The notes under the pieces are model-generated. The model saw only the letters and a list, made by a program, of their open reading frames with translations. It was not told the DNA's origin and did not search any database. DNA of 64,000 bases from Aestuariispira ectoiniformans (GTDB lineage: Bacteria > Pseudomonadota > Alphaproteobacteria > UBA8366 > Aestuariispiraceae), in assembly GCF_025136295.1 (NCBI RefSeq), contig NZ_CP062788.1:1891001-1955000 (forward strand), written 5' to 3'. Position numbers and translations under genes: made by a program. This document shows positions 5,358 to 23,919 of this stretch, piece by piece. How positions within the stretch are numbered: the first letter of the stretch is position 1; the number at the start of each line of letters is the position of its first letter.

Positions 5358-7397
5358 GTGCCAGAGTCGTCCAATGGTAAAGAAGAGGCTTTGATCGTCT
5401 TCACGCCGTCGGGCAAGCGCGGCAGCTTTCCTATCGGGACCAAGGTGCTTGATGCCGCCCGTCACCTAGGCGTCGATATCGATTCCGTGTGTGGCGGGCG
5501 TGGCATTTGCGGTCGTTGCCAGGTACAGCCGAGCCTCGGGGATTTCCCGAAGTTCAACGTCAAGAGCCACGCCGACCATATTTCCGAATTTGGCGCAAAA
5601 GAACTGCGCTACAAAGAAAAACGCGGGATGAAGGATGGTCGCCGGCTGAGCTGTTCGGCGGTGATCGAAGGCGATCTCGTGATCGACGTTCCGGCTGACA
5701 GTCAGGTGCACAAGCAGGTCGTCCGTAAACGCGCTGAAGTGCGTAATATCGAGATCGACCCCGTTGTTCGTCTTCACTATGTGGAGGTGGAAGAACCGGA
5801 TATGCACCACCCGTCCGGTGACCTGGAACGCGTCAAGACAGCGCTTAAGTCCCAGTGGGATATCGATGTCACCCGCGCGGACCTGCCGGTCCTGCAGACC
5901 CTGCAGAAGGCGTTGCGTGACGGGGAATGGAAGATTACCGCTGCCGTCCGCTATGACGGCGAACTGATTTATGTCTGGCCCGGTTTTCAGGGCAATGCCT
6001 ACGGGTTGGCGGTGGACATCGGGTCCACGACCATGTCTGTGCATCTGACGGATTTGCAAACGGGTGAGGTCGTCTCCTCCGTTGGTGCGATGAACCCGCA
6101 GATCCGTTTCGGCGAAGACCTGATGAGCCGCGTGTCCTATGTCATGATGAACCCCGGCGGGGAACAGGAAATGACCGCCGCAGTTCAGGAGACGCTGAAC
6201 TTCCTGGCAGGTCAGGCCGCGACGGAAGCCGGTGTAGACCTCACTGAAATTCTGGAACTTGTGCTGGTCGGAAACCCGATCATGCATCATTTGGCCTTGG
6301 GCATTAACCCGGTGGAATTGGGCTGGGCGCCGTTTGCACTGGCGACCAATAGCGCGGTTGAATTGTGGGCGGATGAAATCAATGTCCGTGTGAACCCTGG
6401 CGCACGCGCCTATTTCCTGCCCTGCGTTGCGGGGCATGTCGGTGCGGATGCGGCGGCGGTCACCCTGGCCGAAGGGCCGCAATATCGCGAAGAAATCACA
6501 CTGGTTGTGGACGTGGGAACCAATGCGGAAATCGTATTGGGGAACAAGGATCGCCTTCTGGCCTGTTCCAGCCCGACCGGTCCGGCCCTTGAAGGGGCGC
6601 AGATTTCCAGTGGTCAACGTGCGGCCAATGGCGCGATTGAACGTGTCCGCATTGACCCGGAAACCTTGGAGCCGCGCTTCAAGGTTATTGGTTGTGACCT
6701 GTGGTCCGATGACGACGGATTTGAACTGGCATCCGCCAAGGTCGGCGTGACCGGCATCTGCGGTTCCGGCATTATTGAAGTGATGGCGGAGATGTTCCTG
6801 GCCGGGATCATGAGCGCGGACGGTATTATCGACGGCAGCATGGCCGAGAAGAGTGACCGCATCGTGCCCGAAGGCCGTACCTTCAGCTATATTGTTCGCC
6901 GTGGGGAACCGGAAATCCGGGTCACCCAGGCAGATGTTCGGGCCATTCAGCTTGCCAAAGGCGCGCTCTATGCCGGGGCGCAACTGCTGGTCGACAAGCT
7001 TGGCAAGCCGGTGGAACGTGTCGTTCTCGCAGGTGCCTTCGGTAGTCACATTGACCCGAAATACGCCATGGTTCTGGGGTTGGTTCCTGACTGTGACCTG
7101 GACAAGGTTGTTTCTGTCGGCAATGCGGCCGGCACGGGCGCGCGTATTGCGTTGCTGAACCGGAAGGCCCGTGGCGAGGTAGAACGTCTGGTGGCGGATA
7201 TCGAGAAAATTGAAACCGCGGTCGAGGCCAAGTTCCAGGACCATTTCGTGGGCGCGATGGCCTTCCCGCATAAGACCGCGCCATACCCAAATTTGCAAAA
7301 AGTTGTCGCATTACCGGCGCGCAAAACTGCTCAGGATGGTGATGATAGCGACGGTACAGCGGGAGGCGGGCGTCGCCGACGCAGACGCCGTGGCTAA
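5358..7397 (+). CDS. Ferredoxin-ASKHA reductive activator of corrinoid proteins (RamA/RACo type, DUF4445)
   Basis: A 679-aa protein that in this family uses a low-potential electron and ATP to return inactive Co(II) corrinoid to Co(I). The N-terminal 2Fe-2S domain has C45-x5-C51-x2-C54 and C99. A middle linker follows, then an ASKHA ATPase region beginning YGLAVDIGSTTMSVHL (about 215). Further motifs are VVDVGTNAEIVLG, SSPTGPALEGAQ, GICGSGIIEVMAEM and VVLAGAFGSHIDP. The final residues are a basic Gly/Arg tail (AGGGRRRRRRRG), matching MeTr and MttB in style. GTG start, with AGGAGTAAGG upstream. Its presence shows that the corrinoid carrier is redox-cycled in this organism. Confidence 0.93.
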   Translation: MPESSNGKEEALIVFTPSGKRGSFPIGTKVLDAARHLGVDIDSVCGGRGICGRCQVQPSLGDFPKFNVKSHADHISEFGAKELRYKEKRGMKDGRRLSCSAVIEGDLVIDVPADSQVHKQVVRKRAEVRNIEIDPVVRLHYVEVEEPDMHHPSGDLERVKTALKSQWDIDVTRADLPVLQTLQKALRDGEWKITAAVRYDGELIYVWPGFQGNAYGLAVDIGSTTMSVHLTDLQTGEVVSSVGAMNPQIRFGEDLMSRVSYVMMNPGGEQEMTAAVQETLNFLAGQAATEAGVDLTEILELVLVGNPIMHHLALGINPVELGWAPFALATNSAVELWADEINVRVNPGARAYFLPCVAGHVGADAAAVTLAEGPQYREEITLVVDVGTNAEIVLGNKDRLLACSSPTGPALEGAQISSGQRAANGAIERVRIDPETLEPRFKVIGCDLWSDDDGFELASAKVGVTGICGSGIIEVMAEMFLAGIMSADGIIDGSMAEKSDRIVPEGRTFSYIVRRGEPEIRVTQADVRAIQLAKGALYAGAQLLVDKLGKPVERVVLAGAFGSHIDPKYAMVLGLVPDCDLDKVVSVGNAAGTGARIALLNRKARGEVERLVADIEKIETAVEAKFQDHFVGAMAFPHKTAPYPNLQKVVALPARKTAQDGDDSDGTAGGGRRRRRRRG

Positions 7398-14270: not shown

Positions 14271-15233
14271 TTATCGGCGCTCGCCTTTCCCGTAATGGGC
14301 CTCGATCTTGGTTTGTACCAGTTCCAGGCAGATGGAAAGCATCCAATAAACAAGTGCTGCGGTGATCAGCATCTCCAGATGTTTGAACTCGGCGCGGCCT
14401 GCGGTCTTTGCCCGGTAGGTCAGGTCCCAGACGCCTACAACGGAAATTAGGGAGCTGTCCTTCAGCATGGCGATGAACTGGTTGCCGGTCGGTGGAATGA
14501 TATGTTTCATCGCCTGGGGCAGAATGATCTTCCGGAAGGTCATGCGTTTGGACAGACCCAGAGACCAGGCAGCCTCGCTTTGCCCGGCGGGAATGGCCTG
14601 AATGCCTGCGCGGAAAATTTCCGCCATATAGGCTCCATAGCAGGCGGACAGCGCAAGAATGCCGGCGGGAATCGGATCAATGACAAAACCAAGCTGTGGC
14701 AGGCCGATATAAACTAGGTAAAGTTGCATGAGCAGCGGCAGGCCACGAAAAAATGAAATATAGAAAGTGGCGCAGCCGAAGGCGAAGCCGTTGTTGGACA
14801 TACGCGCCAGCGCGCCGACTAAAGCGATGGCACAGGCAATCAGCGTAGCGATTGCTGAAATGTAGATCGTGGTCCATGCACCTTCCAGAAGGAAGGGGAG
14901 TTTCTTCATGATGAAGGCGTAGCTCAGGTCAAAGGACCAGAAGAAAGCCATGAATAATGCAAACAGTTCCGCCCAGGTAACATAGATCTGAAGTTGGCGG
15001 GGTAGTTTGCTAATCGCGAAAACGTTAAGGGTGAATATAGCGCCGAGGAGGAGCCCGGCTGCGAGCATACCGGGAATACCGGCAGCAAGATCGGATCCGA
15101 TAAAGTCGGCGACCACTGTTTCCAGCGCCGTTTGCCGAAAGTCGACCACGGCGAAAAGCGCAGTGGAGATGAGGAGGACGATCAGCCACTTGTTGCGTGA
15201 CTGATCATCCCGAATGTTGGCAAAAGCACTCAT
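14271..15233 (-). CDS. Polar amino-acid-type ABC transporter permease
   Basis: A 320-aa inner-membrane permease of the HisM/GlnP family. The N-terminal extension (about 90 aa) carries two extra hydrophobic segments, and the core follows. The cytoplasmic EAA loop that contacts the ATPase is visible (EAAWSLGLSKRMTFRKIILP), as is GNQFIAMLKDSSLISVVGVWDL. It is encoded 22 bases after the binding protein. No ATPase gene is adjacent, so it must use one encoded elsewhere. Context (BetI-like regulator, 2OG dioxygenase) suggests import of a betaine or N-methylated amino acid. Confidence 0.9.
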   Translation of the reverse strand: MSAFANIRDDQSRNKWLIVLLISTALFAVVDFRQTALETVVADFIGSDLAAGIPGMLAAGLLLGAIFTLNVFAISKLPRQLQIYVTWAELFALFMAFFWSFDLSYAFIMKKLPFLLEGAWTTIYISAIATLIACAIALVGALARMSNNGFAFGCATFYISFFRGLPLLMQLYLVYIGLPQLGFVIDPIPAGILALSACYGAYMAEIFRAGIQAIPAGQSEAAWSLGLSKRMTFRKIILPQAMKHIIPPTGNQFIAMLKDSSLISVVGVWDLTYRAKTAGRAEFKHLEMLITAALVYWMLSICLELVQTKIEAHYGKGERR

Positions 15234-15255: not shown

Positions 15256-16083
15256 TTATTTCGCAACGGTGTAGTCGAGACCGTACCATTTTTCGGACAG
15301 CTTGCTCAGCGTGCCGTCTTTGCGCATTGCATCGACGAGTTCAGCAAGCTTGGCATCAAATTCCGCGTCGCCTTTGTCCGTGGCGATCGCCAGCGGTTCA
15401 TAGAAAACCGGGTCGCCGACGAGGCGGAACGGGTAGCCGGACTTGATGGCTTCCTGAACCGTCGGCGTTGGCGTCAGTACGGCGTCCAGGCGCTTGCCAT
15501 CTCCCAGGCGCAGGTCGTCGTAGGCGTTGGTATCGGTTTCATAGGTGCGCTTGTCGCCTGCCGTCACCTGATATTCGAACGGCGGCACGCCCTTGGCGTC
15601 GAGAACCAGATTCTTGTCCATATAGAAGTCCGTCGTGCAACCGGCGCAAACACCGATGGTTTTGCCATTCAGGTCAGCAAGGGTTTTCACGGCGGAATCT
15701 TTATGCACGGCGAAGGATGCCGGTGTGTAGTAGTAGACTGCCGGGAAGTTGAGAACCTCGCGACGGGCCTTGGTCGGCGCCATGGAGCCTACGGAAATGT
15801 CCCAACGGCCTTTCCAGTTCCCTGCGGTGATGACTTCCCAGGCGGGCGTGATGATTTTCAGTTCGACCCCAAGGCGTTTGGCGATTTCGCGGCCAACGTC
15901 GATGTCGAAGCCATCCATTTCGTTGTCGTCATTCAGGAAGGACTGCGGCGGATAGGCTGCGTCCGACGACAAAACCAGCGTCTTGTTTTCCAGGACGCGG
16001 TCCAGTGTCGCGCCTGCCATGGCCGATGTAACCGGTGCCAAGGCAATCATTGCCCCCACTAAAAACTTAAGCCCTTTGCGCAT
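15256..16083 (-). CDS. Periplasmic amino-acid-type solute-binding protein (SBP_bac_3)
   Basis: A 275-aa exported protein. The signal peptide is MRKGLKFLVGAMIALAPVTS plus AMAG. The mature part begins ATLDRVLENKTLVLSSDAAYPPQSF, typical of family-3 binding proteins, with GFDIDVGREIAKRLGV and WDISVGSMAPTKARREVLNF. ATG 16083 follows GGGAGAAAGAG; the longer upstream frame lacks a signal peptide. A putative TetR operator (16143-16158) lies 60 bases upstream of the start. The ligand is unknown; a quaternary or methylated amino acid fits the neighbours. Confidence 0.91.
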   Translation of the reverse strand: MRKGLKFLVGAMIALAPVTSAMAGATLDRVLENKTLVLSSDAAYPPQSFLNDDNEMDGFDIDVGREIAKRLGVELKIITPAWEVITAGNWKGRWDISVGSMAPTKARREVLNFPAVYYYTPASFAVHKDSAVKTLADLNGKTIGVCAGCTTDFYMDKNLVLDAKGVPPFEYQVTAGDKRTYETDTNAYDDLRLGDGKRLDAVLTPTPTVQEAIKSGYPFRLVGDPVFYEPLAIATDKGDAEFDAKLAELVDAMRKDGTLSKLSEKWYGLDYTVAK

Positions 16084-16142: not shown

Positions 16143-16158
16143 TTGTACAACCGTATAA
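16143..16158. promoter_or_regulatory. Putative TetR operator, copy 1 (TTGTAC-N4-GTATAA)
   Basis: TTGTAC, a four-base spacer (AACC), then GTATAA. The two halves are inverted repeats apart from one symmetric position. The same 6-4-6 arrangement recurs at 16923-16938. This copy lies upstream of the solute-binding-protein gene, in the gap after tetR. Confidence 0.62.
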
Positions 16159-16230
16159 TAGTTGACCGAATTGATGCAACATTTGATTCTGCGAAGTGCG
16201 GTATTAGCGTCCGGTTTTTGCTTTTTAGCG

Positions 16231-16884
16231 TCATTCCGGCACGATTGCGAGGCGTCGATGGACATTTTGTCCGAGAAAACCGTCCAGCCAGCTTTGGCAC
16301 AGCACGATCGCCTGGTCGGAGGAGAACCCGTCGGGGTCCAGGCAAAGTTCCAGCCATAGACCGTCCAGAAGGGCGGACAGGCTGATTGCCATGAGATGGG
16401 CATCCGTATTTACATTTTGCTGCTCGGTCAGCGCAATCAGCGTGTTTTCAAGATGCTGGCGGAAGTCCTGATTGTAACGCCGATGGGCATCGGCCAGTTT
16501 CGGGTCGCTGCGTTGGAGGCTCCAGAAGGCAACCCAGACCCCCAGCATTTCATCGGTGACCCATTCGTCCTTCAGGATGTGCACGAAAAGGTGGGACAGG
16601 CGCTCCTCAGGCGGGAAGCTCTCGTCATCCAGAATTTCGGCGCAACGCTGATTCACCTTGGTGGTCAGGTAATCATAGGTCTGGACGACCAGATCATCCT
16701 TGCCGTCGAAGTAGTGTCGCAAAAGCCCGGGTGATACACCCGCCTCCGCACAAATCTCGCGAACCGACGTGGCCCGTGCACCGATGCGGGCCAGGCAACG
16801 GATGGTTGCGAGTATGAGGGCCTCACGCCGTTCGTCGGCTTCCAGGCGCTGAAATTTCGGTTGGTCCGCGGCATCCCTATCCAT
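16231..16884 (-). CDS. TetR-family regulator, BetI-like
   Basis: 217 aa. The N-terminal helix-turn-helix reads TSVREICAEAGVSPGLLRHYF. The ligand domain shows BetI-like features: WVAFWSLQRSDPKLADAHRR and LSALLDGLWLELCLDPDG. BetI family members repress betaine/choline genes. ATG 16884 with AGAGG upstream is chosen; the longer frame to 17085 would overlap the divergent promoter. It lies between the transporter genes (same strand) and the dioxygenase (opposite strand). Two matching operator-like palindromes flank it, so it probably controls all three promoters. Confidence 0.88.
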   Translation of the reverse strand: MDRDAADQPKFQRLEADERREALILATIRCLARIGARATSVREICAEAGVSPGLLRHYFDGKDDLVVQTYDYLTTKVNQRCAEILDDESFPPEERLSHLFVHILKDEWVTDEMLGVWVAFWSLQRSDPKLADAHRRYNQDFRQHLENTLIALTEQQNVNTDAHLMAISLSALLDGLWLELCLDPDGFSSDQAIVLCQSWLDGFLGQNVHRRLAIVPE

Positions 16885-16922
16885 AACGACCTCTATTCTT
16901 GACTTACGAACTTTGTCATTTA

Positions 16923-16938
16923 TTGTACAGATGTATAA
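16923..16938. promoter_or_regulatory. Putative TetR operator, copy 2 (TTGTAC-N4-GTATAA)
   Basis: TTGTAC, spacer AGAT, GTATAA. It lies in the 133-base divergent region between the BetI-like regulator and the dioxygenase. With copy 1 it defines a conserved 6-4-6 palindrome. Confidence 0.65.
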
Positions 16939-18293: not shown

Positions 18294-19187
18294 ATGGCCG
18301 ACGTGTCGAAGACTTCGGCGGTGAACTCATCGTTACAATCCATCCAGAAAATCACCAAAGCCGCGGGAAAGGCGCAGACCGCGCTGACCACGGGGCGCAA
18401 AGTCAACAAGGTCACCGACGACCCCAATTCCTATTTCGTGGCGAAGGCATTGTCGGATCGGGCCGGTGACCTGACCCAGCGGAAGGCGGCGGTGGACCAG
18501 GGCGTTTCCGCCCTCAACGTGGCGAATACCGCTCTCGACAGTATTGATAAATTTGCCGAACAACTTAAGGGGATTGCAGAGGCTGCCAAGTCGGCATCTC
18601 CGGCTGAACAGCGCGCTTTGAGCAGACAGTTCGAGGAAGTGGGCCGTCAGATCAGCAACGTGGCCCAGGATGCCAGCTATCAGGGGGTGAACCTTCTGAC
18701 GGGCAATAATCAACTGGACGTTCAATTCGACCAGCGGCCCGACTCCCGACTGACGGTGGATGGCCTGAATCTGGACGGTACGGCGGTGAATGCGCAATCG
18801 GGCCTGTTTTCGGTTGCAGCCTTTCAGGCGAATGGCGACTTCAAACTTTCAGCATTTGGCCTTGCTGGCGGTAGTTTTACCGCCGCAGGCGGCAATGTGG
18901 GCCAGATCGGCAATGTGATCGGTGCGATCGACAGCGGCATCAGTCGCCTGCGGGGGCAGGCGGCAAGTCTGGGCTCTAATGTGGCAATCCTGCGGGAGCG
19001 TCTGAACTACACCGACCAACAGGCCAATGAACTTCAGACAGGAGCCGACAAATTGACGCTGGCCGACCTGAATGAAGAGGCTGCCCGGACGGCGGCGGCG
19101 CAAACGCGGCACCAGATCGGGATCAATTCCCTGTCCATTGCCGGAGATCAGCAACGGGCCATCCTGCAACTTCTGGGGAACGGCTAA
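18294..19187 (+). CDS. Flagellin
   Basis: A 297-aa short flagellin. The N-terminal D0/D1 helices contain ALTTGRKVNKVTDDPNSYFVA and the C-terminal helices contain LTLADLNEEAARTAAAQTRH followed by QIGINSLSIAGDQQRAILQLL. The central variable domain is short. It is secreted by the flagellar type III apparatus to form the filament. ATG 18294 follows GGAG; in-frame ATG 18282 is possible. No other flagellar genes are nearby, so it is an isolated flagellin locus. A TAAA-rich stretch with GCCCGACA (about 18208-18238) loosely recalls a flagellar sigma-28 promoter. Confidence 0.92.
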   Translation: MADVSKTSAVNSSLQSIQKITKAAGKAQTALTTGRKVNKVTDDPNSYFVAKALSDRAGDLTQRKAAVDQGVSALNVANTALDSIDKFAEQLKGIAEAAKSASPAEQRALSRQFEEVGRQISNVAQDASYQGVNLLTGNNQLDVQFDQRPDSRLTVDGLNLDGTAVNAQSGLFSVAAFQANGDFKLSAFGLAGGSFTAAGGNVGQIGNVIGAIDSGISRLRGQAASLGSNVAILRERLNYTDQQANELQTGADKLTLADLNEEAARTAAAQTRHQIGINSLSIAGDQQRAILQLLGNG

Positions 19188-19786: not shown

Positions 19787-21301
19787 CAGACCGTTGACAA
19801 ACCCCGTCGATATTCGGCGGGGTTTAGTTTTGGATGTTTGCCGGTTGTTATTGAGGGAGAGTGAGAAGTCCCCTTTCGATCAGATCGGGCTGGTTTCGGT
19901 TTTTGGAGCCATTGCGAGGGCGATTTTCTTGATGTTTTGGGCGGCGGCGGCGAGCAGGCATTGCGTTTTGACGGCGATGAGGCCGCGGAAGCGGGCGTAT
20001 CGGTGTCCGAAGAGCTGCTTTGCGTCGGCAAAGGAGCGTTCTACAGTTTCCTTGCGTCTTTTATAGAGCCTTTTGCCCCAGTCGGTGAGACGGTGGGCGT
20101 CCGTGCGCTCCCGGGCGTCCTGCCAGACATGGCGGGTGACGGTTTTGGTGTGTTTGGCGCTGCCGGTGCAGGAGGCAAGCAGCGGGCAGGTGGCGCAGAC
20201 CTTCGGGTCGCTTTTGTAATGGCGATAGCCGTTGCGGTCGGTGGTGGCATAATTCAGGAACTGGCCCTGCGGACAGCGGTAGCCGTCTAACTGCCGGTCG
20301 TACTGATAGTCCCGCTTGCGCAGCATGCCTGCCCGGTGGTTCGGGCGGCGATAGCCGGTTACACCGAGGATATCCCTGTCTTCCAGCCCCTTGGCGATGC
20401 CCGCCGTGGCATAGCCTGCATCCAGCCCGACCGCCTGGACATCCAGGCCGAAGCGGTCCCGCTGCCGGTCGAGCCGGTCCAGATAGGGGATACTGTCATG
20501 CACAGTGGCCGGGGTGGCGTGAGTATCGGTGATGATGCCATAACGCCCGTCCACCGTGCGATGATCCAGATAAAAGAACCCCTTGGGCTTGCCTTCACGC
20601 ACCATGTAACCGGCTTCCGGGTCGGTGCGGCTGACCTTGGTCTCCTTTTGCCCGGGCGCGCGTTCCTTCGCCTTCAGCGGCTTTTTGGCATGGGCCGCCC
20701 GATCCTCCTCAACCGCCAGGTCCAGCGCGTCCCAATAGTCGGCCCGGGACTTGGCGACCACTTGGCTGTCCCATTTGTTCTTGTTGGCATTGGCCTTCAG
20801 ATGGGTGCTGTCGGTATAAAGCACCGTGCCGTCCACAAGACCCTTGGCAATTGCCTGTTCGACAATGTGATCGAAAATATCCTGCGCCACAGACACATCC
20901 TGGTAGCGGCGGCGGCGGTTCTGCGACAGCGTCGAGGCATCGAACACCTTGTCGGTGAGGCCCAAGCGCAGAAACCAGCGATAGGCCACATTCACCTCGA
21001 TCTCCCGCACCAACTGCCGCTCCGAGCGGATGCCGAACAGGTAGCCGATGAACAGCGCCTTGAACAGCATCACCGGGTCCAGCGCCGGGCGGCCATTATC
21101 CGCGCAATACAGACCGGCCACCCGGTCGTGGATAAACGAAAAGTCGATCACCGCATCGATCTTGCGAAGCAGGTGATCCGCAGGCACCAGACCCTCCAAT
21201 GTCACCATCTCAAGTCGGCCCTGTTCAGGCTGGGGCTTCTTCAACATAAGACAATAGAATCACAAAGGCCCCGCTTGCGCGAGACCTTTGTCAGCAGTCT
21301 G
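19787..21301 (-). mobile_element. IS1182-type insertion sequence, copy 1 (1515 bp)
   Basis: Ends are CAGACCGTTGACAAA (left) and, inverted, CAGACTGCTGACAAA (right), so 13 of 15 terminal bases match. Sub-terminal hairpins occur at both ends (e.g. 19799-19826). It carries one transposase gene. Length equals copy 2 (28562-30076) exactly. It is flanked by a duplicated 27-bp terminator hairpin, a palindrome-target pattern I recall for this family. Confidence 0.93.
19880..21247 (-). CDS. IS1182-family transposase (copy 1)
   Basis: A 455-aa DDE transposase. The N-terminal domain opens LKKPQPEQGRLEMVTLEGLV, with YLFGIRSERQLVREIEVNVA next. Candidate catalytic acids lie in LYTDSTHLKANANKN, VGLDAGYATAGIAKGLEDRD and TVERSFADAKQLFGHRYARF. 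A zinc-like cluster CATCPLLASCTGSAKH precedes the C-terminal acid. It differs from copy 2 at three residues seen by eye (Gln/Arg, Leu/Ser, Ala/Val). The frame is intact, so it may be active. Confidence 0.95.
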   Translation of the reverse strand: MLKKPQPEQGRLEMVTLEGLVPADHLLRKIDAVIDFSFIHDRVAGLYCADNGRPALDPVMLFKALFIGYLFGIRSERQLVREIEVNVAYRWFLRLGLTDKVFDASTLSQNRRRRYQDVSVAQDIFDHIVEQAIAKGLVDGTVLYTDSTHLKANANKNKWDSQVVAKSRADYWDALDLAVEEDRAAHAKKPLKAKERAPGQKETKVSRTDPEAGYMVREGKPKGFFYLDHRTVDGRYGIITDTHATPATVHDSIPYLDRLDRQRDRFGLDVQAVGLDAGYATAGIAKGLEDRDILGVTGYRRPNHRAGMLRKRDYQYDRQLDGYRCPQGQFLNYATTDRNGYRHYKSDPKVCATCPLLASCTGSAKHTKTVTRHVWQDARERTDAHRLTDWGKRLYKRRKETVERSFADAKQLFGHRYARFRGLIAVKTQCLLAAAAQNIKKIALAMAPKTETSPI

Positions 21302-21354: not shown

Positions 21355-23919
21355 TTACGACTTCATCCGCTCGTTGGTCGGATCATAGAGCGCCTTCATG
21401 CCCACGGACTCAACCTGGATCGGGAACTTCTGGTTGAAGTATTCGATCTCAAGCTGACGGCCCTCTTCGCAATAGTCCTGCGGCAGGTAGCCCAGCGCGA
21501 TGTTCTTTCCGACCGACGGCCCGTAGGCAAAGCTGGTCGTGTAGGAACGACGGCCAAGGCTGTCGATCAGAACTTCGTTGGTCTTCGGGTCGATGATCGG
21601 GCAGTTGCCCATCATGAAGCGCGCCACGCCGTCCTTGTCGACATTGTCGGTCACGGTCATCGTGCAGAGCATGGCCACCTGGTGGTCCAGGGCGCGCTGT
21701 TCGATGTTAGCGGCCTTACCGCGGAAGTCGGCGGCTTTGACCTTCGGACGGGCCAGACCGGCTTCCAGCAGGTTATAATGGGACAGCAGATCCGCATTCT
21801 GCAGGCGCAGGCTCTTTTCCAGACGACGGCTGTTGGCGTAGGTCTCGATCCCGATCGGGGTGATACCCACTTCGCGGAACATATCCCACAGGGCCAGACC
21901 GTAGCTCATGGAGAAGTGAAGCTCCCAGCCCTGCTCGCCCACATAGGAGATGCGGAAACCTTTGACCGGAATGCCACGCAGGGTGAAGTCCTTGCAGGCA
22001 CCGAAGCCGAAGTTTTCGATATCCAGGCCAGACGGGGTGTCGGCCAGTTTCTTGAGGGTCTCGCGGGCATTCGGGCCCCAGACACCGATACAGCCATAGT
22101 GGTCCGTGCGGTCTTCAACGAAGACATCCCAGCCTTTGTCCTGGGCCATGCGGCGCAGATAGGTGGCGTCACGGTTACCGGCGTCGCCGCCGTCGATCAT
22201 CTGGAAGCGGTTTTCACCCAGACGCAGGACGGTCAGGTCCGCGATCACGCCGCCTTTGTCGTTAAGGAAGTTGGTGTAGACACCTTTGCCCACTGCCGTG
22301 TCGCCCGCCACCTTGGAGGAGGAGACATATTCCATCAGTTCAGCCGCGTCGCGACCGGTGATGTCATAGATTGCAAAGTGAGACAGGTTGACCATGCCGA
22401 CATTCTCGGAAAGCTCCAGATGCTCGGCATTGGAAACGCGCCAGAAGTGACGGTTGTCCCATTCGTTCAGGCGTTCCGGCACGCGGTCGCCGAATTTTTC
22501 CAGCAGATGTTCGTTGGACGCATAGCCGTGGGCACGTTCCCAACCGGCGATTTCCATGAAGTGGCCGCCCAGTTCCTTCTCACGCAGGTAATAAGGAGCG
22601 CAACGCAGGTTACGGCCCATGGAATAGGGTTCGCGGGCGTGAACCGGCGGGTTGTAGATCTTGAACGCCGTCTCGTAGCAGCGGTCATAGATGTATTTTT
22701 CGGATTTCTGGATTTTATAATAGCGCGCGTAATCAATCGTCGCGTGGTCGATTTCGGTTTCGCCGTCGGTCATCCAGTCTGCGATGACCTTACCGGTGCC
22801 CGGGCCGTCCTTGACCCAGACGGAAACACCGTACCACAGGCCGCGCACATCCGGGGATTCACCGATCGACGGGCCGCCATCGGCAGTCACCTGCAGCAGA
22901 CCGTTGAAGGAATGCTTCTCGTTGTAACCCAGTTCCGCCAGAATCGGGGTCAGTTCCATCGCGCGCTCAAGCGGCTCGATGATCTGTTCCATTTCCAGGT
23001 CACGCTGGGAGGGGGAGAGGCGAGCCTCTTCTTTTTCCAGGATGTCACGCGGGTGAACCAGGCGGGGGTCTTTCTCTTCGTAATAACCCCATTCGATCTG
23101 GCCGCCTTCGGTGGTGCCAGCAGCGCCGGTGTCGCGCAGATAGGCGGAGTTGCCCTGGTCGCGCAGCAACGGATAGCCGATTTCCTTGCCGGTGCCGTCA
23201 AACTCGTGATACGGGCCGAAGAAGGTCAGCGGATGGTCAACCGGCATGACCGGCAGGTCTTCGCCCGCCATTTCAGCAATCAGGCGGCCCCACAGGCCGG
23301 CGCAGACCACAACATATTCGGTTTCGATGTAACCTTTTTCGGTGTGAACGCCCTTGATGCGGCCGTCTTCGATGTCGAGACCGGTGCAGGAGCAGTTCGG
23401 GATCGTTTCCAGCTTGCCGGTTGCCTCGGCTTCAAGGATCATTTCACCGGATACGGTCTGCGAACGCGGAACCACGAGACCGGCATCGGGGTCATAAAGC
23501 GCACCCTGAATGACGGTTTCGTCGATCAGGGGCATCATTTCTTTTGCCTCTTCCGGAGAGATCATGCGGACGTTGCTGCCAAGTGCACGACCGGAGCTGA
23601 CACGGCGTTCCAACTCGCCCATGCGCTCGTCGTCGTCCTTGCGGGCTACCTCGATGCCACCGATCCGCTCATAGCGGCCGCGCTTCTCGAAGAAGTCGAT
23701 GGAGTATTTGGTGGTGTAGACCGTCATCTGGTCATGGGCTGTCATGAAGCAGAAGTCCGACGCATGGCCGGTGGAGCCGATATCGGTCGGGATGGCTGAC
23801 TTGTCGATCCCGATGATGTTGTCCCAGCCCCGTTCGATCAGGTGATGGGCAACAGATGCCCCGACGATGCCGCCCTGACCGATGATCACGACTTTCGCGC
23901 TCTTGTGGAATTGCGCCAT
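21355..23919 (-). CDS. FAD-dependent dimethylglycine/sarcosine dehydrogenase-like protein with C-terminal GcvT domain
   Basis: An 854-aa cytoplasmic flavoprotein. The N-terminal FAD domain has VVIIGQGGIVGASVAHHLIE (10-29). STGHASDF places His52 where DMGDH-type enzymes link FAD covalently. The C-terminal half (about 440-850) is a GcvT-like folate-binding module with a central block including GEQGWELHFSM. Such enzymes oxidatively demethylate N-methyl glycines and pass the C1 unit to THF. GGAGACGG precedes the ATG. A 16-bp palindrome lies 74 bases upstream. The mttB-like gene, about 3 kb away, could supply its substrate by removing one methyl group of a betaine. Confidence 0.9.
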   Translation of the reverse strand: MAQFHKSAKVVIIGQGGIVGASVAHHLIERGWDNIIGIDKSAIPTDIGSTGHASDFCFMTAHDQMTVYTTKYSIDFFEKRGRYERIGGIEVARKDDDERMGELERRVSSGRALGSNVRMISPEEAKEMMPLIDETVIQGALYDPDAGLVVPRSQTVSGEMILEAEATGKLETIPNCSCTGLDIEDGRIKGVHTEKGYIETEYVVVCAGLWGRLIAEMAGEDLPVMPVDHPLTFFGPYHEFDGTGKEIGYPLLRDQGNSAYLRDTGAAGTTEGGQIEWGYYEEKDPRLVHPRDILEKEEARLSPSQRDLEMEQIIEPLERAMELTPILAELGYNEKHSFNGLLQVTADGGPSIGESPDVRGLWYGVSVWVKDGPGTGKVIADWMTDGETEIDHATIDYARYYKIQKSEKYIYDRCYETAFKIYNPPVHAREPYSMGRNLRCAPYYLREKELGGHFMEIAGWERAHGYASNEHLLEKFGDRVPERLNEWDNRHFWRVSNAEHLELSENVGMVNLSHFAIYDITGRDAAELMEYVSSSKVAGDTAVGKGVYTNFLNDKGGVIADLTVLRLGENRFQMIDGGDAGNRDATYLRRMAQDKGWDVFVEDRTDHYGCIGVWGPNARETLKKLADTPSGLDIENFGFGACKDFTLRGIPVKGFRISYVGEQGWELHFSMSYGLALWDMFREVGITPIGIETYANSRRLEKSLRLQNADLLSHYNLLEAGLARPKVKAADFRGKAANIEQRALDHQVAMLCTMTVTDNVDKDGVARFMMGNCPIIDPKTNEVLIDSLGRRSYTTSFAYGPSVGKNIALGYLPQDYCEEGRQLEIEYFNQKFPIQVESVGMKALYDPTNERMKS

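Follow-up and report, generated by a model that had tools for sequence, protein, structure and literature searches.

Why does the same 16-bp palindrome stand both before a pair of transporter genes and inside a divergent tetR/dioxygenase promoter, and which compounds would such a set of genes serve? The question arises from a 64,000-nucleotide stretch of Aestuariispira ectoiniformans DNA (NZ_CP062788.1, positions 1,891,001 to 1,955,000), hereafter the window. An earlier note had described a TTRTAC-N4-GTAYAA repeat there and proposed a common operator and a small BetI-like regulon for quaternary-amine use. The repeat was confirmed at both promoters, and the features concerned are as follows (window coordinates).

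14271-15233, minus strand: amino-acid ABC permease, extended at its N-terminus by about 100 aa and with no adjoining ATPase gene
15256-16083, minus strand: amino-acid-type substrate-binding protein (SBP_bac_3), 275 aa
16143-16158: candidate operator 1, TTGTACAACCGTATAA, about 60 bp 5' of the binding-protein ATG (16083); exact match to TTRTAC-N4-GTAYAA
16231-16884, minus strand: TetR-family regulator, 217 aa, with PF13977 (TetR_C_6); closest PDB chain 3e7q
16923-16938: candidate operator 2, TTGTACAGATGTATAA, in the promoter region shared by the divergent tetR and dioxygenase genes; exact match to TTRTAC-N4-GTAYAA
17018-18124, plus strand: Fe(II)/2OG dioxygenase of the trimethyllysine-dioxygenase (TMLD) type, 368 aa; TIGR02410, 305.3 bits against a cut-off of 268.3

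Both sites are 6-4-6 palindromes with one imperfect pair each, and the second lies about 39 bp from the tetR ATG (16884) and 80 bp from that of the dioxygenase (17018). Thirty family sites, picked for matching the motif, align to a symmetric, roughly 20-bp pattern similar to TATTRTACRNNYGTAYAATA, in which the innermost C and G of the half-sites never vary. By themselves, site counts are weak proof of an operator: the window holds four matches with up to two mismatches against 2.13 expected, and the 4.36-Mb genome holds nine with up to one mismatch against 21 for a reversed control pattern. It is the placement and the conservation of the sites that are decisive. The three exact matches in the genome are all within promoters; in the genomes of nine relatives, five of the six exact matches fall inside the tetR locus, as do four matches of the reversed control, so that place, and not count, is the evidence.

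Counts not clearly above the control are what would be expected if the palindromes arose by chance or served some unrelated DNA-binding protein. The comparison covered 37 loci with a tetR of this subfamily, cut with 1.5 kb per side (8 + 26 + 3, the last three from larger stretches), several of them from one genus (g294) and hence not all independent. A site with up to one mismatch was present in 26 of the 37, compared to a mean of 0.10 and a maximum of 2 in 100 dinucleotide shuffles, and on this basis chance palindromes were rejected. At least eight families have such sites, and only one of six more distant tetR loci carries one (up to one mismatch). On a tree that counted G060 and the distant locus L018 as site carriers (their sites being outside the 1.5-kb cut or from another scan), the site label needs five changes, against a mean of 12.6 under shuffled labels. 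Likewise, 10 of 12 dioxygenase loci collected without using the motif carry a site; the two that lack it belong to one genus (g246), with no such tetR adjoining within the fetched stretch.

Sites are also kept at orthologous promoters, even after gene relocation, and this, too, argues against chance. The binding-protein promoter of Aestuariispira insulae (G001) has the orthologous site TTGTACGAGCGTATAA (L019:7478), and its tetR promoter also carries a site. In this species the dioxygenase gene is on a separate contig, where TTATACAAATGTAAAA nonetheless precedes it (L048:195), so the link between gene and site exceeds mere position. In Curvivirga aplysinae (G002), the tetR/dioxygenase promoter has a site in the equivalent place (L020:4068), as happens in four genomes of family f41 and in G374 and G121.

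The sites also change together with the regulator; on all of this evidence, chance or an unrelated protein is very improbable. In most loci the recognition helix of the regulator reads SPGLLRHYF, SPGLVRHHF, TAGLIRHYF or similar, whereas SVGLINHHY is found in L063 (genome G297) and the Pseudomonas-like L066-L068, which are among the relatives without the TTRTAC consensus. At the corresponding promoters of L063 and L066-L068, TTGAAC-N4-GTTCAA replaces the usual site: L063 has it at both promoters (TTGAACACATGTTCAA for the binding protein and TTGAACGTTTGTTCAG for an aminotransferase), and L066-L068 have it at the tetR promoter with one or two mismatches. The TTGAAC site, with up to two mismatches, was absent from the six TTRTAC-type loci scanned (L010, L034, L035, L036, L071 and L072) and, in the same scan, from L089-L091. 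Among the sequence data, this covariation is the strongest indication that the palindrome would be bound by this TetR protein.

To what extent, then, is the regulator a BetI? BetI models are its best NCBIfam matches, as the earlier note had anticipated, but both fall below their cut-offs (110.3 bits for TIGR03384, cut-off 201.3; 109.6 bits for NF001978, cut-off 118). BetI, a choline-responsive member of the TetR family, shares with it the TetR_C_6 C-terminal domain; unlike BetI, the window regulator is not adjoined by betaine synthesis genes, its neighbours being the dioxygenase, binding-protein and permease genes instead of betA and betB, and its operator presumably differs from that of BetI. 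The structure model (pLDDT 88.6) has 3e7q, from Pseudomonas aeruginosa, as its closest solved structure (39% identity); its other fold neighbours include one solved with choline, an N,N-dimethyl compound and benzamidine, as well as RcdA with TMAO. The relatives of 3e7q in L066-L068 combine the SVGLINHHY helix with a TTGAAC-N4-GTTCRA-like operator and, by eye, an adjoining polyamine-type binding protein. An identity of 3e7q with AguR (PA0294) was considered and is not supported, as these relatives have no agmatine genes adjoining within 3.6 kb (by eye). The open-licence papers searched do not name 3e7q, and excerpts of an AguR paper (PMC4287709) give no operator for comparison.

A genome search with the motif, suggested in the earlier note as a way to the missing ATPase gene and to other members, supplied two members but not the ATPase, which was found at none of the exact or one-mismatch sites of the genome. 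The two members are:

G000:C1:1727758-1729362: CrtO/PYROXD2-type FAD oxidoreductase, 535 aa; third exact site in the genome, 30 bp before the ATG
G000:C1:2908802-2909665: DDAH-like hydrolase; one-mismatch site at 2908771-2908786, 15 bp before the ATG

With conserved sites and four promoter units, the proposal of a common operator and a small regulon stands, and comparison of these sequences makes the operator and its predicted members very probable. Other one-mismatch sites (L004, L005, L007, L008 and L009) were not accepted as members, some being inside or after genes and others lacking an orthologue comparison. The one at L008:1501-1516, probably a chance match, is 17 bp 3' of an ORF whose product looks, by eye, like the gamma subunit of a sarcosine oxidase.

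The third exact site (G000:C1:1727712-1727727) separates the FAD oxidoreductase gene from a divergent FemAB-like gene 38 bp away; the latter was discarded as the target, because it is the FAD oxidoreductase that recurs beside the operator elsewhere. Its A. insulae orthologue (78% identity) has TTATACAAATGTAAAA in the equivalent place, and in G738 a site likewise precedes the FAD-oxidoreductase gene itself. Orthologues in G694, G284, G646 and G620 (family f16) lie directly 3' of a Rieske-type gene beginning at the tetR operator, with Rieske domains confirmed in the G694 protein; those in G005 and G006 had no site. The best NCBIfam match of the protein is CrtO, with 275.5 bits, far below the cut-off of 1000, and it is under every NCBIfam cut-off. 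It presumably resembles PYROXD2, for which published work gives indirect support: it is reported that bird PYROXD2 is most similar to CrtO, with about 35% identity to a cyanobacterial CrtO and no detectable carotenoid activity (PMC12010460). In people, a PYROXD2 variant accounts for 50% of the variance of plasma N6-methyllysine and 48% of that of dimethyllysine (PMC8109053), an association that also appears in PMC9730628.

Two observations touch the surroundings of this gene. In family f16 (L104-L108) the operator has tetR on one side and an operon for a Rieske oxygenase and the FAD oxidoreductase on the other, in a neighbourhood with peptidase-like genes and, in L105, also a basic amino-acid antiporter-like gene. 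Besides, a perfect TGTGATCACA palindrome, possibly the site of a second regulator, occurs a few bases 5' of the FAD-oxidoreductase operator in both the window genome and A. insulae (L103:~5700-5709 and L110, just before 1465).

The DDAH-like gene depends on a site with one mismatch, a class that is not enriched genome-wide (nine against 21 for the control). Its C. aplysinae orthologue (G002, 75% identity) has CTATACATTTGTACAA 18 bp upstream of its start codon, and in family f177 the operator is followed first by a DDAH-like gene (34% identity in L080) whose operon also includes tetR; the orthologues of family f41 (52-53% identity) had no site in four of four cases. The protein resembles DDAH in its nearest solved structures (3rhy, E 1.9e-13) and in the EAPG.VEGGD, HLMS and GGPTC motifs, shared with a rhizobial relative, which we take to be the catalytic Glu/His/Cys motifs of DDAH; the curated cut-offs, in contrast, are far off (81 of 340, 57 of 450 and 26 of 300). 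DDAH acts on methylated, not plain, arginine.

The earlier note had called the dioxygenase TMLD/GBBH-like, of which the first half holds. In a profile search of the genome it scored 303.8 for TMLD and was the only one of three family members above the cut-off, which no protein exceeded in 14 control genomes. It remains below those for GBBH (TIGR02409, 306.3 of 414.75) and TmpA (NF049936, 283.7 of 400). The window enzyme shares with TMLD, BBOX1 and TmpA the GBBH-like_N and TauD domains, the iron ligands and the cage residues; it differs in being bacterial, with 26-32% identity to TmpA and BBOX1 in a fold alignment, and in exceeding the cut-off for TMLD alone. In alignment with BBOX1 we find F171, W175, Y188 and Y342, presumably the aromatic cage, and H196, D198 and H337, presumably the iron ligands, so that both the triad and the cage expected of a TMLD are in place. 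W175 is kept in nine of ten aligned dioxygenases, the one from G121 lacking the cage tryptophan, and Asn191 of BBOX1 is replaced by D185, which is invariant in the ten sequences and where, we presume, the human trimethyllysine hydroxylase also has an aspartate. Trimethyllysine is the predicted substrate. The structure model of the enzyme has a pLDDT of 80.8 and is weak near the active site (residues 181-204). A phylum-wide search at E 1e-120 retrieved the dioxygenase from two of 339 genomes, both already known. The same genome contains two more dioxygenases of the family (G000:C1:1083543-1084616 and 3567057-3568136), 34% identical to the one in the window and under the TMLD cut-off.

The transporter points to amino acids. 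T104, R107 and D200 are kept in six of six orthologues of the binding protein, with R107 aligning with an arginine of a solved amino-acid-binding relative; these residues presumably hold the alpha-carboxylate and alpha-amine of the ligand, and their conservation leads us to expect an amino acid as ligand, not a betaine. Inspection by eye of six genomes (the window, L019, L024, L058, L060 and L063) found no ATPase gene of amino-acid type next to the binding protein-permease pair, which may borrow an ATPase. In G297 (L063), a binding protein 59% identical to that of the window is beside a protein that scores as a 5-guanidino-2-oxopentanoate decarboxylase (773.8 bits, cut-off 500), which suggests an arginine-like substrate in that genome.

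Quaternary-amine use, as the earlier note had it, turns out to be too simple. Such a regulon, BetI-like and responding to gamma-butyrobetaine, carnitine, betaine or 2-trimethylaminoethylphosphonate, which have a trimethylammonium group in common, would agree with the GBBH/TmpA-family cage kept in the dioxygenase, with the fold neighbours of the regulator that bind choline and TMAO, and with a Rieske oxygenase resembling GbcA (147.8 bits, cut-off 670) that adjoins the operator in family f16. We nevertheless hold it to be unlikely, given the GBBH, TmpA and BetI scores below their cut-offs, a binding protein of alpha-amino-acid type that keeps the presumed carboxylate and amine residues, and a DDAH-like gene among the members. 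The FAD oxidoreductase, the DDAH-like enzyme and the amino-acid-type binding protein point instead to methylated lysine or arginine. A TMLD-type dioxygenase, a PYROXD2/CrtO-type FAD enzyme, a DDAH-like gene and an amino-acid-type binding protein converge on this class, methylated basic amino acids, which in our judgement has about an even chance of being the substrate.

The partner genes found elsewhere could also be read as a regulon for guanidino compounds, with arginine, agmatine or a relative as effector and a dioxygenase acting on a guanidino substrate. In rhizobia-like and other Alphaproteobacteria, the operator heads operons of DDAH-like and/or tetR, aminotransferase and AruI-like decarboxylase genes (L071, L073, L074, L077, L080, L081, L082, L083, L084, L085 and L087), with amino-acid ABC genes on its opposite side (from domain calls for some, the rest by eye). 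An arginine-type decarboxylase and an aminotransferase accompany the regulator in families f177 and f26 and in L063, DDAH-like genes belong to the regulon, an agmatine-deiminase-like ORF (PAD_porph) adjoins the Curvivirga tetR, and one fold neighbour of the regulator was solved with benzamidine. Against this, the dioxygenase is above the TMLD cut-off with its cage intact, the FAD oxidoreductase is of a type tied to methyllysines in people, and the substrate of DDAH is methylated arginine; we regard the guanidino regulon as quite unlikely. Since the same subfamily is found elsewhere with either an arginine-type decarboxylase or a Rieske oxygenase and its partner genes thus vary, effectors may differ between clades. 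The FMN oxidoreductase of G374 and the isochorismatase-like and PRK06148 proteins of G121 beside tetR suggested no clear pathway.

Our preferred reading is a regulon for methylated basic amino acids in place of one for quaternary amines at large. Degradation of methylated proteins releases methylated lysine and arginine. Protein turnover would thus free N6-methylated lysines, trimethyllysine and possibly methylarginines, which would enter via the binding-protein transporter and bind the regulator. A TetR dimer, probably autoregulated and substrate-released, would otherwise occupy TTRTACRNNYGTAYAA at four promoters, those of tetR/dioxygenase, binding protein-permease, FAD oxidoreductase and DDAH-like hydrolase, and would leave the operator upon binding its ligand. 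The dioxygenase would hydroxylate trimethyllysine, the FAD enzyme would oxidise methyl- or dimethyllysine, and the DDAH-like enzyme would cut methylarginine. Sites, promoter places, conservation and covariation with the regulator are directly visible in the sequences; DNA binding, repression, dimer, autoregulation, inducer and the substrate of each enzyme are predictions from them. As a whole, a substrate-released repressor over uptake and breakdown of methylated lysines, trimethyllysine and perhaps dimethylarginine is a reading that we favour slightly. According to one paper, human SLC25A45 recognises dimethylarginine and trimethyllysine but not the corresponding plain amino acids (PMC12594208), a precedent for one carrier taking both compounds.

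More tentatively, and somewhat short of even, this TetR subfamily of Alphaproteobacteria might respond to the methylated state of basic amino acids in itself, with a single regulator and operator coordinating the salvage of both methylated lysines and methylated arginines. With similar reserve, the salvage regulon could be the bacterial counterpart of the human handling of these compounds by SLC25A45, trimethyllysine dioxygenase, PYROXD2 and DDAH. If true, bacterial PYROXD2 and TMLD relatives would have a common physiological role. That a single operator joins TMLD-type, CrtO/PYROXD2-type and DDAH-like enzymes makes the idea directly amenable to testing, suggests a biosensor for methylated lysine and arginine metabolites, and puts bacterial models for PYROXD2 on offer. 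We found no bacterial regulon for methylated lysine or arginine in the open-licence papers searched, nor this operator or the predicted effector class; TetR regulons as such are known, and an earlier description elsewhere is possible.

Two further genes are found downstream of the dioxygenase in the window. A dimethylglycine-dehydrogenase-like protein (21355-23919; DAO, FAO_M and GCV_T domains) is encoded 3 kb from the cluster, without an adjoining operator, and is separated from it by an ORF that by eye resembles an IS transposase (19880-21247). Next, 3' of the dioxygenase, there is a flagellin-domain gene (18294-19187), and a similar-looking ORF is 3' of the Curvivirga dioxygenase (L020:6275-7207), which suggests an old synteny.
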